From NCBI GenBank assembly GCA_001184205.1, contig LBMP01000003.1:186001-250000 (forward strand): 64,000 bases of DNA. The letters are read 5' to 3'. This document shows, in pieces, positions 15,080 through 42,459 of this stretch. Position numbers and translations under genes: made by a program. The number at the start of each line of letters is the position of its first letter. Within the stretch, counting starts at the first letter, position 1. The stretch comes from Desulfocarbo indianensis. Its GTDB lineage: Bacteria > Desulfobacterota > Desulfarculia > Desulfarculales > Desulfarculaceae. The notes under the pieces were generated by a model. It was not told where the DNA came from and did not search any database. It worked only from the letters and a program-made list of their open reading frames with translations.

Positions 15080-16096
15080 ATGAATATCAGATATCTGATC
15101 TCCGGGTATAAAACCGTGCGGATCCCCGGCCTCTGGCCCGTGATGCGCGACTTGCTGCCATTTTTGCGCATGCACTACCTGTACGCGGCCCTGGAAACCG
15201 GTTTGCTGCCAGCCCTGCGAACCGGGGCCACCCGGGAGACGCTAATAGCCAAACTCCGTGTCCAGCGCCCCCAATTATTGGACGCGCTCCTGGATATGGG
15301 GTTGGCCCTGAAGGAGCTCTCCCTGCGCAACTCCGTCTTCAGCCTCAAGGGAAACCGTTCCAAGGCGCTGGCCTCCCAGGATGGCGATGTCTTGGCCGCC
15401 TTGATCCAGGCCAATGCAACCTACTACCGAGACTCCTACCGCCACCTCGCCGCCCGCATGGGCGGCGCCCCGCTGGGCGACGATCTGGACGAGATCGGCG
15501 AACTGGTGGCCCGTTTCTCCAAAATCGGCGAGCCCATTCTCAGGAGCTTCATTCACTCCCTGATCCCCGCTGCCGGTGTCTTCCGAATCCTGGATGTGGG
15601 CTGCGGAAGCGGTTTTGTTCTGAAAACGGCCAGGGAAGCAAACAATAAGGCAACCGGCGCCGGGATCGATGCGGACAGCAAGGTGGCGGACCAGGCCAGG
15701 AACAACCTGGCAAAATGGGGGCTCCAGAATTCTTTCGACATTCTGGCCGGGGATATCCGCGCCCAGATCGATGCCCGGCAAGGCGGCTTCGATCTGATCA
15801 CCGCCTTCAATCTTATCTATTATGTGGTCCCGGAAGAACGCCCCGAATTTTTCTCCCTGCTGCGCTCCCTCCTCTCCCCCCATGGCCGCCTGGCCCTGGT
15901 CAACAACTTTCAGAGCAAGGGCAAAGACCCCATGGCCGCCAATCTCAACATCGTCAACTGCTCTCTAAAAAGGCTCACCGCTTTGCCGAACCTGGAGGAC
16001 ATTAAAAGCCAGCTTACCGGTTGCGGCTTTCAGCGCATCCAGTTCACCCGCTTCATGCCAAGAAACGAGTTCTACGGCATCACGGCCTATGCTTAG
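15080..16096 (+). CDS. Class I SAM-dependent methyltransferase
   Basis: 338 residues. Motif I, ILDVGCGSGF, is at about 170-179; an acidic motif II region (GAGIDADSKV) and FDLITAFNLIYYV follow. The first ~130 residues look like the helical/winged dimerisation part found in O-methyltransferases of small-molecule type (YAALETGLLPAL, then a winged-helix-like stretch). The substrate is unknown. Start ATG 15080 has AAAGGAA upstream. The gene probably belongs to the regulon of the TetR protein encoded just upstream. Confidence 0.85.
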   Translation: MNIRYLISGYKTVRIPGLWPVMRDLLPFLRMHYLYAALETGLLPALRTGATRETLIAKLRVQRPQLLDALLDMGLALKELSLRNSVFSLKGNRSKALASQDGDVLAALIQANATYYRDSYRHLAARMGGAPLGDDLDEIGELVARFSKIGEPILRSFIHSLIPAAGVFRILDVGCGSGFVLKTAREANNKATGAGIDADSKVADQARNNLAKWGLQNSFDILAGDIRAQIDARQGGFDLITAFNLIYYVVPEERPEFFSLLRSLLSPHGRLALVNNFQSKGKDPMAANLNIVNCSLKRLTALPNLEDIKSQLTGCGFQRIQFTRFMPRNEFYGITAYA

Positions 16097-16298: not shown

Positions 16299-16326
16299 TT
16301 GACAGGCTACACGGACTTGCTATATG
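16299..16326 (+). promoter_or_regulatory. Sigma70-type promoter for the structured RNA
   Basis: TTGACA (16299-16304), a 16-nt spacer and TATATG (16321-16326). It places the transcription start near 16333, exactly at the first base of the folded RNA described in the next entry. Confidence 0.65.
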
Positions 16327-16332
16327 AATTTT

Positions 16333-16480
16333 CCGTAACTCTCTCCCTTGGGGGGCACAGCGCGATCGAATTCGCATAGGGAGGAGCTGTTACGGGTCGG
16401 GGTAACCCGAAGACTCTAAAACGGAATAAACCGGCTACGAAGGCCGTCTCCAGGCATTGTCCTGGGGCGGCCTTTTTTTG
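16333..16480 (+). ncRNA. Structured leader RNA or small RNA (candidate riboswitch) upstream of TonB/DUF4198 genes
   Basis: By hand folding: closing stem CCGTAAC (16333-16339) with GTTACGG (16389-16395); inner stem CTCCCT/AGGGAG; a small hairpin GCGA/TCGC; then a GTAA (GNRA) tetraloop hairpin TCGGG/CCCGA (16398-16411); a single-stranded purine-rich stretch (ACTCTAAAACGGAATAAA); then a strong terminator. The layout of promoter, compact multi-helix domain, linker and terminator is that of a transcription-attenuating riboswitch. A free-standing sRNA is the alternative, because the ORF starts 200 nt past the terminator. I could not match it to cobalamin, TPP, SAM, glycine or c-di-GMP-I consensus elements. 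Neighbour genes make a metal or cofactor ligand likely (inference). Confidence 0.55.
16442..16479 (+). terminator. Intrinsic terminator at the end of the structured RNA
   Basis: GGCCGTC plus CCAGG pairs with CCTGG plus GGCGGCC (12 bp with one bulged T, loop CATTGT), followed by seven T residues. It is 5' of the TonB receptor gene and could be the switching element. Confidence 0.8.
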
Positions 16481-16676
16481 TTAGCGCCCTGCCTGGGCGG
16501 CAGGGAATATCCATATGGCTTGGCGAAAGGTAGAGGGACGGCCACCGTTCCTTGGCCGGTCTGAGCGACCGTCCCCCCAGCTTAGCGAGAGACATGTCGC
16601 CTCTTGCCGTCTTATTTTCCTATCCCTTTCGCCGAAAGTCAACCGGGCCAAACCATAAGGGAAAGGAGAATGGATC
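16481..16676 (+). other. Second part of the receptor leader, with hairpins
   Basis: CCCTGCC/GGCAGGG (16487-16505, 5-nt loop) forms a clean hairpin. Downstream, GGGACGG and CCGTCCC (about 16531-16576) can enclose a second folded segment containing GGCCA/TGGCC. AAGGAG at 16663-16668 is the receptor ribosome-binding site. The methyltransferase-side part, 16097-16298, shows nothing I can name. Confidence 0.4.
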
Positions 16677-18752
16677 ATGAGATGCGTCAGTAGCGCCGTC
16701 CTGGTGGCGGCCGGATTCATGCTGGCTTTTTGGCTGGCATGCGGACCAGGGACCTCGGTCCAGGCGGCGGAGGAGAAAGCCGCCTCGACCGAGAGCGCCG
16801 CGGAGCAAGAAGAGAAAAAATCATCAACCAAGCTGGAAGACGTCTTGGTGCGCGGCAAGGGCGAAGCCTTCTCCGGCATCGAGGCCACCAGCGCCACGGT
16901 CTTGGACAACGCCGATGTAACCGACCGCATCTACGTCACGCCGCTGGACATGATGAAATTGTCTCCCGGCGTCAATATCGTCGAATTTCACCAGGGCGGA
17001 GTGCCGTCCGGTCTGCAAATGCGCGGTTTCCCGTGGGTGTCCCACTACACCGATGGCGCCGTCTATCTGGATGGAGTGACGCAGAATACCATACCGGATG
17101 GCGGCAGCACCAATGTGGTCATACCCCTGGAAGTGGAGCGCGTTGAAATAATAAAGGGCCCGTCTTCCGTTTTCTACGGCAACTATGCCAGCGCCGGGTC
17201 CCTTCACTTCCATACCTTTCAAGCCGGCGATTTCACCCGCCTGAAAATGCAGTATGGCAGCTTCAACACTCAGGACTTGGCGGGCGTGATGGCCCGCCGC
17301 GATGGCAACCTGGATCATGTGTATTCCGCTCAGGTTTATCACACCGATGGTTACCAGGATAACTCCAAGTGGGATAAACAGATCGGGGCCGGGCGTTGGA
17401 CCTACCACTGCGGGGACCGCCTGGACGCAAACTTTGGCCTGCGGGTATTCCACAGCACCTGGGACGCGCCGGGATACATACCGCAGCATATGTATAACTC
17501 CAACCCATCCAGCGCCGTCTCGGACGTCAATGGTGGATGGAGTGATCGCGAAGAAGCCAGAGCTAATCTCCTTTACAAGCTTACCGACACTTCCAATCTC
17601 AAATTTTCCGCCTGGGGCGCCCAGCAAGAGTTTCAACGCTATTACCAGGGCTCGTTATCAGCGGGTCTGCAACCCGGAACCGACTATGGTTCCACCTGGC
17701 GCTGGGACAGAGAGGCGTTCGGCACGGGACTGTCGTACAGCTTCCAAGGAAAGGTCTTTTCGCGAGAGACCAAATTCGACCTGGGCGTTGAATGGATGTA
17801 CGAAGAATACGATTGGAAGGAATGGAACCTGGTGGTCGGCAGGGGCAGAACCGCTGGCGACGCCACCTCAAGCCGCATAGACACCCGCTATTGCATATCG
17901 CTGTATGGCGAGCTTGACTATCAAATCCTCACTCCCTTGCGTCTGGTGCTGGGCAGCCGCTTCGACTCCTTCCAGGGCACCCTCGAAAACCGTCTTGAGT
18001 CCAAGACCATTGACCGCGATGGCCCGGATATTTACAGCCCCAAGGCCGGTTTGGTGTTCAACCCGATCAAGGGCGTCGAACTGTTCGCCAATTACGGCAA
18101 GGGTTTCGCCCTGCCGGAACCCATGGATTTTTACGAACGGCAATATCTGGACCCGGCCATACGAACCCAGTATGAGACGGGCGTGCGCTTCGAACCCAAT
18201 ACGTGGAGCAGATTCTCCTTGACCCTCTGGAGCATGGATACCACCGACGATTTTCAGCCAAACCCCGTAAACCCCAACCAAGTCGAGAACGCCGGCGAGA
18301 CCAGGCGACAAGGCATAGAGGCCGATGCCCACTTCACCCTGTGGAAGCATTTAAAGCTGCGCCTGGACTATGCGTACACGGATACGGAATACCTGAGCTA
18401 TGTCGGCGGGGACGGTCAATCGTATGACGGCAACGAATTGACCTATGTGCCGCATAACATCTTCAACGCCGAAATTGGCTGGCACCAAACCCAAGGCTGG
18501 GGAGGCAGGCTTACCTACCGTTACGTCACCGACTACTTCATCGACTCCGCCAACACCATGAAGGGTGACGCTTACGGCACGGTAAGCGCCCAGGCGTCTT
18601 ATCGTTTCAACAAACAATACAAGCTGGCCCTGGATGTAATCAACCTGTTCGACCGGGAATACGCCGATTATGTCGGCTCTAGCAATGGTGAAAAAATCTA
18701 TTCTCCGGGCAATCCGCTCTCTGTTTATCTCACCTTCACCATCGACTGGTGA
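16677..18752 (+). CDS. TonB-dependent outer membrane receptor
   Basis: 691 residues. A signal peptide (~1-31, VLVAAGFMLAFWLACGPGTSVQA) is followed by a charged linker, a TonB-box-like LEDVLVRG (~58), the plug with MRGFPW and VERVEIIKGPSSVFYGN, and a beta-barrel that ends LSVYLTFTIDW. Start ATG 16677 sits 8 nt after AAGGAG; a closer ATG at 16670 is out of frame. The next gene, 17 nt downstream, encodes a DUF4198 protein, a pairing seen in nickel/cobalt uptake loci, so a metal or metal-chelate substrate is likely but not proven. The folded leader RNA suggests control at the transcript level. Confidence 0.9.
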   Translation: MRCVSSAVLVAAGFMLAFWLACGPGTSVQAAEEKAASTESAAEQEEKKSSTKLEDVLVRGKGEAFSGIEATSATVLDNADVTDRIYVTPLDMMKLSPGVNIVEFHQGGVPSGLQMRGFPWVSHYTDGAVYLDGVTQNTIPDGGSTNVVIPLEVERVEIIKGPSSVFYGNYASAGSLHFHTFQAGDFTRLKMQYGSFNTQDLAGVMARRDGNLDHVYSAQVYHTDGYQDNSKWDKQIGAGRWTYHCGDRLDANFGLRVFHSTWDAPGYIPQHMYNSNPSSAVSDVNGGWSDREEARANLLYKLTDTSNLKFSAWGAQQEFQRYYQGSLSAGLQPGTDYGSTWRWDREAFGTGLSYSFQGKVFSRETKFDLGVEWMYEEYDWKEWNLVVGRGRTAGDATSSRIDTRYCISLYGELDYQILTPLRLVLGSRFDSFQGTLENRLESKTIDRDGPDIYSPKAGLVFNPIKGVELFANYGKGFALPEPMDFYERQYLDPAIRTQYETGVRFEPNTWSRFSLTLWSMDTTDDFQPNPVNPNQVENAGETRRQGIEADAHFTLWKHLKLRLDYAYTDTEYLSYVGGDGQSYDGNELTYVPHNIFNAEIGWHQTQGWGGRLTYRYVTDYFIDSANTMKGDAYGTVSAQASYRFNKQYKLALDVINLFDREYADYVGSSNGEKIYSPGNPLSVYLTFTIDW

Positions 18753-18769
18753 AAAAAAGGAGTATCGAA

Positions 18770-19531
18770 ATGTGGGGAAAAAAGTTTGTGGTGCTGTGTA
18801 TGACCCTTATTATGGCTCTTTTCGCCTCGGCGGCTATCGCCCATGACATGTGGGTGTTGCCGGACAAACCCATGGTCGGCAAACCGCTGCGCTTGTTGAT
18901 CGGCTATGGACATAAATTACCCATAGACGAACCCATGGACCTGGCGGCTTTGTCTCCCACCTATGTTCAAGGCCCCCAGGGAAAGGTGGATTTCAAGCCT
19001 GGGTCCCAGCAGGATTTGACAAGCGCGACGCCGCTGGGCAAGGGCACCTATCTGGTGGTGAGCGGAAGCAAGGCGCAGTTTTGGTGCGTATTGCCCGACG
19101 GCTGGAAAAAGGGCTCCAAAAAGGAATACCCCGAGGCCCGCAGCTGCCATCGCTCGGTCAAATTCGCCAAGGCGGTGGTCAACCTGGGCGGGGCCAAGGG
19201 CGACGTGAGCAAGCCCGTGGGACAGGAACTGGAAATCGTGCCGCTGGCCAATCCCGCCACGGTCAAAAGCGGTGGTTATCTGCCCTTGCAGGTGCTTTTC
19301 CAGGGCAAGCCCTTGTTGGGGGCGGAGGTGTACGCTTCCTTCGTGGGTTTCACCGACGATGGAACCGGTTACGCCTTCATGAATCACACCGACAAGAGCG
19401 GCAAGGTCCGGCTGAAGGCCTGGCATCCCGGACAATGGCTGGTGGTGACCAGGCGCGAGGTTCCTTGCGCCGACCCCAAGGAATGCGACTCCCAGTATTA
19501 CAGCGCGGCGCTGGCCATTGAGATCAAGTAG
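18770..19531 (+). CDS. DUF4198 periplasmic protein (NikK-like)
   Basis: 253 residues with a signal peptide (~1-26, ending ASAAIAHD), so the mature protein starts near His-Asp. It has the DUF4198 layout: HDMWVLPDKP at the mature N-terminus, then an Ig-like C-terminal part with GTGYAFMNHTDKSGKVR and WLVVTRREVPC. Family members accompany nickel/cobalt ECF transporters or TonB receptors and are thought to handle metal in the periplasm. A GTG overlapping the receptor stop (18749) could add seven residues, but AAAGGAG at 18756-18762 favours ATG 18770. It forms an operon with the TonB receptor. Confidence 0.85.
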   Translation: MWGKKFVVLCMTLIMALFASAAIAHDMWVLPDKPMVGKPLRLLIGYGHKLPIDEPMDLAALSPTYVQGPQGKVDFKPGSQQDLTSATPLGKGTYLVVSGSKAQFWCVLPDGWKKGSKKEYPEARSCHRSVKFAKAVVNLGGAKGDVSKPVGQELEIVPLANPATVKSGGYLPLQVLFQGKPLLGAEVYASFVGFTDDGTGYAFMNHTDKSGKVRLKAWHPGQWLVVTRREVPCADPKECDSQYYSAALAIEIK

Positions 19532-42100: not shown

Positions 42101-42459
42101 GGGGGCGACACGGTTTCGACGGGGGCAGTTGATGCCCAAGTTGCATGCCGGGGCCTCACCGGCCCGTGACCCGGTGGGAAATAAAGTAATCGCAGACGAT
42201 TACGCATACGCCGTAGCCGCGTAAATAGGCTACCGTCCGCTCAGCCCATTCCCGCGGGGCTGATGTCGGGCGCCGACTAGTGGGATAGGTTTCCGGCATC
42301 GCCTGGCCGGCCGGAAACCGAAAACAAAGGCGAGGCTGGTTCGCCAGGAACCCTGTCAGTGGGGGTCCTTGAGAACGAGACTTTAAAACACTGAATAAGC
42401 ATGTAGACGCTTGGGTTGAAAGCCTTCGGACGGGGGTTCGATTCCCCCCGCCTCCACCA
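42101..42459 (+). ncRNA. ssrA: Transfer-messenger RNA (tmRNA)
   Basis: One-piece tmRNA of 359 nt. The 5' arm GGGGGCG followed by ACACGGTTTCGACGGGG pairs with the 3' part GTTCGATTCCCCCCGCCTCC-ACCA, giving the Ala-tRNA-like domain. The resume codon GCA is at 42192, and the tag ORF 42192-42224 encodes ADDYAYAVAA before TAA, so the peptide added to stalled proteins is (A)ADDYAYAVAA, ending in the protease-targeting AVAA. The 3' end marks the left boundary of the mobile element. Confidence 0.97.

Follow-up and report, generated by a model that had tools for sequence, protein, structure and literature searches.

The cobalamin riboswitch is often located before genes for TonB receptors, CbiM and BtuC, and the NiCo riboswitch is described as having a four-helix junction. 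Other delta-proteobacteria are known to have the nickel repressor NikR along with nikMQO, nikK and nikL (PMC545781). The RNA targets of ANTAR proteins consist of hexaloops with A1 and G4 on 3-bp stems, separated by linkers of 5-12 nt (PMC3369931). Here we compared with these systems the leader RNA of a TonB-receptor/DUF4198 operon in a 64,000-nt stretch of the Desulfocarbo indianensis genome (contig LBMP01000003.1, positions 186,001 to 250,000; hereafter the window, to which all positions refer). Judged from its sequence, this leader is rather likely to be a transcription attenuator that responds to nickel and has a dual-hairpin antiterminator. Its 3' half is that of a family, apparently not yet described, of two-hairpin switches located before nickel-uptake genes in bacteria without NikR.

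The leader is a transcription unit of approximately 147 nt that runs from a promoter to an intrinsic terminator with seven T. Hairpin 2, near its 3' end, and the terminator are mutually exclusive because the GGCCG arm is common to both, and the leader therefore has the general make-up of an attenuator, namely an intrinsic terminator in the 5' untranslated region (UTR) and a conserved antiterminator that excludes it. With CGGCU[ACGAA]GGCCG and a terminator followed by the TonB receptor/DUF4198 genes, the window fits the family pattern GGYY[AYGAA]GRCC plus terminator before a metal-uptake gene. A preliminary description of this DNA had listed a promoter, a folded RNA, a GNRA hairpin, an A-rich linker and a strong terminator with seven T, all of which can be read in the sequence or the fold. 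The features of the locus are as follows.

Ending at 16096: methyltransferase gene, the upstream neighbour of the leader RNA.
16299-16326, + strand: putative sigma-70-type promoter read from the sequence, TTGACA at 16299-16304, 16-nt spacer, TATATG at 16321-16326.
16333-16395, + strand: long irregular hairpin with the closing stem CCGUAAC 16333-16339/GUUACGG 16389-16395 (folding).
16362-16375, + strand: apical GCGA[UCGAAU]UCGC within the long irregular hairpin, loop at 16366-16371 (folding).
16396-16414, + strand: putative alternative hairpin 1 of the window, GUC[GGGGUAACCC GAA]GAC (sequence comparison).
16397-16410, + strand: GNRA (GUAA) hairpin (folding).
16411-16431, + strand: A-rich linker after the GNRA hairpin (sequence).
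16432-16446, + strand: hairpin 2, candidate antiterminator, CGGCU[ACGAA]GGCCG, conserved in relatives, its 3' arm being the 5' arm of the terminator.
16439-16479, + strand: intrinsic terminator, stem 16439-16454/16461-16475, T7 at 16473-16479 (folding and sequence).
16480-16676, + strand: remaining 5' leader of the TonB receptor gene, in which the arms 16614-16628/16657-16671 would cover the Shine-Dalgarno sequence AAGGGAAAGGAG.
16677-18752, + strand: TonB-dependent receptor gene, putatively regulated (Pfam PF00593/PF07715).
18749-19531, + strand: DUF4198 protein gene after the TonB receptor gene (Pfam PF10670).

Units of hairpin 2 and terminator were gathered by reading receptor loci, by searches with a covariance model of the 3' end (R2) and by scanning 84,980 species genomes for an exact pattern. 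Neither of the latter two was guided by genes, and the recall of the R2 genome searches was low (of thousands of candidates per genome, 14 were scored). A terminator was required in the search because most matches to the plain pattern GGNYAYGAAGRCC by itself lie in coding sequence; the pattern had 53 matches in the genome, and a T-run followed 3 of the 30 that were fetched. The matches listed comprised at least 84 distinct units that had a good terminator, and 77 were kept after dropping those in unrelated bacteria or unclear context. Hairpin 2 has a stem of at least 4 bp in 77 of the 84 collected units, and TTGAC-type promoter-like sites lie within 160 nt upstream of 44 of the 84 (4.1 in shuffles).

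The units (about 77) were found in Desulfobacterota and Thermodesulfovibrio. Within the class of the window's genome, GGYY-AYGAA-GRCC running straight into a terminator recurs upstream of TonB-receptor homologues (24 units); the GGYY/GRCC pairing forms a hairpin of 4-7 bp, and GRCC also starts the terminator stem. In the same genome the unit precedes a 51%-identical TonB receptor paralogue (locus L043) and another TonB receptor (L062), and a fourth copy at G000:C290:92350-92397 (L261, approximately 1050-1100) consists of CCGGTCATGAAGACC and a terminator, preceded by a CCCC[AAUGAA]GGGG hairpin. A relative with a complete 3.66-Mb genome (L038) has the unit as well, as do another genus of the family (L039) and many genomes from the class's second family (L010-L032).

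A first hairpin with an [A/U](N)GAA loop is present in 38 of the 77 units (2.6 ± 1.5 in dinucleotide shuffles), and of the 64 possible loop triplets GAA leads clearly (38 vs. 14 for the runner-up). In the compact Thermodesulfovibrio form a TTGACA promoter is followed by ACCC[AYGAA]GGGU (or an AAGAA loop), 5-7 nt, GGUC[AYGAA]GGCC and the terminator, the most compact units being L146, L152, L197, L205, L216 and L245; variants of the first hairpin elsewhere are GUC[AGAA]GAC, GGCCC[AUGAA]GGGCC and ACAUC[AUGAA]GAUGU. Since these stems change completely yet still pair, the first hairpin is strongly covarying. The linker between the two hairpins ranges from approximately 5 to 100 nt, and beyond the loops nothing is conserved. 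For hairpin 2, the upstream arms form 134 pairs compared with 39 ± 6 for random upstream sequence and have a modest advantage over re-dealt arms (13 of 2000 equally good); changed pairs include GGUC/GGCC, GGUU/AACC, AGUC/GGCU and AGCC/GGCU. The anti-terminator pairing anticipated in the preliminary description thus took the form of a conserved, covarying 3' hairpin that overlaps the terminator, accompanied by a first hairpin with a like loop.

The same data bear on the explanation that the RNA is a chance fold or nothing more than the terminator of the methyltransferase gene upstream. GAAGGCC...GGCCTTTT is indeed a common terminator sequence with chance matches in unrelated bacteria, but a promoter separates the RNA from the methyltransferase gene, GGYYAYGAA is conserved ahead of the stem though unneeded for termination, and the first-hairpin statistics stand against chance, so that this explanation is highly improbable.

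The strength of the fold was assessed against shuffled sequences. The RNA at 16327-16480 folds at -62.6 kcal/mol (z = -3.37; 0 of 200 dinucleotide shuffles equal), which is significant mainly because of the terminator: z is -5.6 for the terminator alone, -1.21 for the leader minus the terminator (23 of 200 shuffles equally good), -2.07 for the 63-nt closed domain and -2.39 for the GNRA hairpin. The window RNA matched nothing in Rfam 15 at gathering scores and gave merely chance matches up to E = 10, in agreement with the earlier impression that it fits no common aptamer class, and twelve other loci searched against Rfam 15 gave no relevant family above the gathering threshold. Identity with 6S RNA was rejected, the 6S RNA of the genome being located elsewhere. 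No homologue was found by blastn with the window RNA in 98 relatives or in phages.

Conservation of the leader does not extend to its 5' domain. Searched with a covariance model built on the closed domain together with the GNRA hairpin, 63 genomes of the class yielded the window alone; weak matches (E 0.008-0.7) had neither promoter nor terminator beside them and were judged to be chance. Copies that precede other TonB receptors, two of them in the same genome, have upstream domains that differ from that of the window. No credible homologue of the P1 domain was thus found, and of the proposed riboswitch architecture the cis-regulatory leader with the riboswitch-like layout of an attenuator was retained, whereas the 7-bp P1 with nested helices as a conserved aptamer was not. 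A reading of the CCGUAAC/GUUACGG repeat as a NikR box was discarded on account of its wrong orientation and spacing relative to GTGTTAC-N13/14-GTAACAC or its reversed form. The hairpin at 16333-16395, with YGAA in its apical loop, is a candidate for hairpin 1 of the window. The alternative at 16396-16414 resembles the GUC[AGAA]GAC hairpin of relatives (L173, L180, L192), and the window version would swap the A for a GNRA mini-hairpin.

Several loci have the terminator 10-60 nt ahead of a start codon, where it must be a cis attenuator; at L126 (NikM), L107 and L021 the T-run ends approximately 11-25 nt before the start codon, which places the terminator within the 5' UTR. In the window 197 nt separate the terminator from the TonB receptor start codon. 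This gap and the complete promoter-to-terminator unit would suit a free-standing, trans-acting small RNA unrelated to the gene behind it, but the position before metal-uptake genes is kept across many genera, the terminator directly precedes the Shine-Dalgarno sequence in several loci, and the body has diverged with the switch alone conserved, making a small RNA of this kind very unlikely. The promoter of the leader has an extended -10 TG at 16318-16319 and agrees with the consensus at 10 of 12 positions; a mechanical scan missed it, as that scan accepts nothing but T in the final -10 position.

The gene families behind the units were assigned by Pfam/NCBIfam on representatives. Directly behind the units are 28 TonB receptors (a count with some bias, as reading receptor loci was the source of part of the units), 19 DUF4198 proteins, 11 S-adenosylmethionine (SAM) methyltransferases forming one homology group, 4 FecCD permeases, 4 CbiM/NikM permeases, 3 NikL-type proteins and a TonB energiser. 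An anaerobic CO dehydrogenase, a nickel enzyme (Ni-CODH), lies behind 3-4 tandem units (L135 1282-1650, L235 103-360), and the units may hence control a nickel user as well as importers. The NikL and CO dehydrogenase assignments exceed the NCBIfam cut-offs. The genes behind the leader and its homologues thus point to nickel/cobalt uptake; the preliminary description had the RNA ahead of genes that often deal with nickel/cobalt or metal chelates. Small SAM methyltransferases stand directly behind the unit in several lineages (L107, L112, L117, L123, L171, L173, L211), possibly with a role in a metallophore or in the maturation of metal enzymes.

The identical switch might respond to another signal, i.e., cobalamin or cobalt, iron, or a metallophore. 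TonB receptors, FecCD/BtuC-like and CbiM-type permeases also serve B12, cobalt and siderophores, and one copy in the genome of the window stands before an AraC-type-like regulator near a likely TonB receptor. With NikL and Ni-CODH above the NCBIfam cut-offs and NikR absent, we regard a signal other than nickel as unlikely, albeit with some weight.

NikR was found in 0 of 15 motif genomes tested vs. 182 of 395 genomes of the phylum, and Fisher's test on 0/17 vs. 180/378, uncorrected for phylogeny, gave p ~5e-5. Two of the 20 genomes with an R2 match were NikR-positive (G237 and G430); these two matches were rejected as spurious, having no GAAGRCC and unrelated reading frames behind them.

In the proposed mechanism transcription, expected to start near 16333, would by default end at the terminator (16439-16479), where RNA polymerase stops. 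If hairpin 16432-16446 with its ACGAA loop were held, the 5' arm of the terminator would be occupied and read-through into the uptake genes would follow. A trans-acting factor would bind the pair of [A/U](N)GAA hairpins and, with hairpin 1 assisting, stabilise hairpin 2 under nickel scarcity, resulting in nickel uptake during shortage in bacteria without NikR. The sequences themselves display the two mutually exclusive structures with their conservation, the loop pair, the associated genes and, in relatives, the terminator within the 5' UTR. That the signal is nickel, which way the response goes and that the loops are bound by a protein and not by the metal is what we infer. A protein is somewhat favoured over the metal itself because the linkers vary from approximately 5 to 100 nt and the loops alone are conserved.

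A direct nickel riboswitch is kept alive because there is no known protein candidate. In such a true metal riboswitch the paired AYGAA/AGAA-loop hairpins would bind Ni2+ or Co2+, and the metal-bound RNA would favour the terminator. Ten of the 16 motif-genome handles tested lack ANTAR proteins, the gene set comprises nickel/cobalt uptake and Ni-CODH in the absence of NikR, and the A(N)GAA apical loop of the terminator in some members gives a loop pair in the terminated state too. Against it speak the conservation of the loops alone with widely varying linker lengths, the lack of a compact conserved core as in known metal riboswitches and the lack of an Rfam match; we consider a metal riboswitch possible but doubtful. 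The apical terminator loop is often A(N)GAA as well in L205, L209, L211, L180 and L190, and in those Thermodesulfovibrio members that carry it the loop pair is consequently present in both alternative states.

Several observations weigh against a nickel-responsive antiterminator. The unit copy before CO dehydrogenase, a nickel user, is a misfit with a simple 'on when nickel is low' response. The fourth copy in the genome of the window precedes, as judged by eye, an AraC-type regulator-like gene and a transporter, divergent from a likely TonB receptor, and TonB receptors and FecCD permeases alone would equally fit iron or B12. In roughly half of the units a first hairpin cannot be recognised, and the two hairpin-1 candidates of the window (16362-16375; 16396-16414) match the family loop loosely, neither passing the strict [A/U](N)GAA rule. 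The covariation of hairpin 2 is modest because its sequence is so conserved. The NikR contrast is suggestive and not proof, since kinship is uncorrected and phylogeny confounds it. The 197-nt gap behind the window terminator leaves room for a second promoter.

The TonB leader at 16500-16676 may be a second regulatory structure. The arms 16522-16536/16619-16633 would compete with the Shine-Dalgarno-masking arms 16614-16628/16657-16671. The G-rich/C-rich domain is found in the same place in 6 relatives, including relatives without the upstream terminator unit; the consensus fold of the rest of the TonB leader is weak in 7 relatives, with both-side changes in 4 of 14 pairs. Elsewhere in the window there are a tmRNA gene (42101-42459) and a tRNA (2479-2563).

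We see about even chances that the family represents a new class of nickel-responsive antiterminator or riboswitch that controls the whole nickel regulon (TonB receptors, NikK/DUF4198, NikL, NikM, FecCD, methyltransferase, Ni-CODH) and replaces NikR in much of Desulfobacterota and in Thermodesulfovibrio. No riboswitch, attenuator or leader for nickel uptake was found in the open PMC text, subscription papers and bioRxiv being outside this coverage. If true, the nickel reading would explain how nickel entry for hydrogenases and CO dehydrogenase is controlled in sulfate reducers and relatives without NikR. It would define an RNA code, that of paired AYGAA hairpins, and lead to a metal riboswitch or an RNA-binding metal sensor, new in either case.

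Compared with known systems, the family differs from the cobalamin riboswitch in structure and in having no Rfam match at any threshold used. A likeness to the NiCo (czcD) riboswitch would involve nickel/cobalt and attenuation, but the family has no Rfam match to it, precedes uptake rather than efflux genes and is without the four-helix junction. Its targets overlap with nikM, nikK and nikL of the NikR regulon of delta-proteobacteria (Rodionov 2004, PMC545781); the NikR system, however, uses a repressor and the DNA operator GTGTTAC-N13/14-GTAACAC (PMC545781), whereas the genomes with the RNA unit that were tested have no NikR.

The layout is closest to that of the ANTAR RNAs (nasF, amiE and eut leaders), which likewise have two small, like-looped hairpins, the second over the 5' arm of the terminator, and act by cis attenuation (PMC3369931). 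In the family, too, the second hairpin overlaps the terminator, and the genome of the window encodes two ANTAR proteins, as an antiterminator RNA read by an ANTAR-domain protein would need. The loops, however, are AYGAA (G at position 3), [A/U]GAA or CAYGAA and not the hexaloop AxxGxx, the stems are longer (4-12 bp), the linkers extend from approximately 5 to 100 nt, and the genes are for metal uptake. The ANTAR domain (PF03861), present in the window's own genome, is absent from five Thermodesulfovibrio-type genomes (G441-G443, G445, G446), G165 and four second-family genomes (G023, G025, G026, G027), while G097 and G444, apparently one genome, have it. Recognition by an ANTAR protein is thus largely refuted outside the window's own family and has, for this leader, a next to negligible probability. 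The logic is that of ANTAR RNAs, but with AYGAA as the loop and no ANTAR protein in most of the motif genomes tested, the switch is best described as working like an ANTAR target without being a member of that group.
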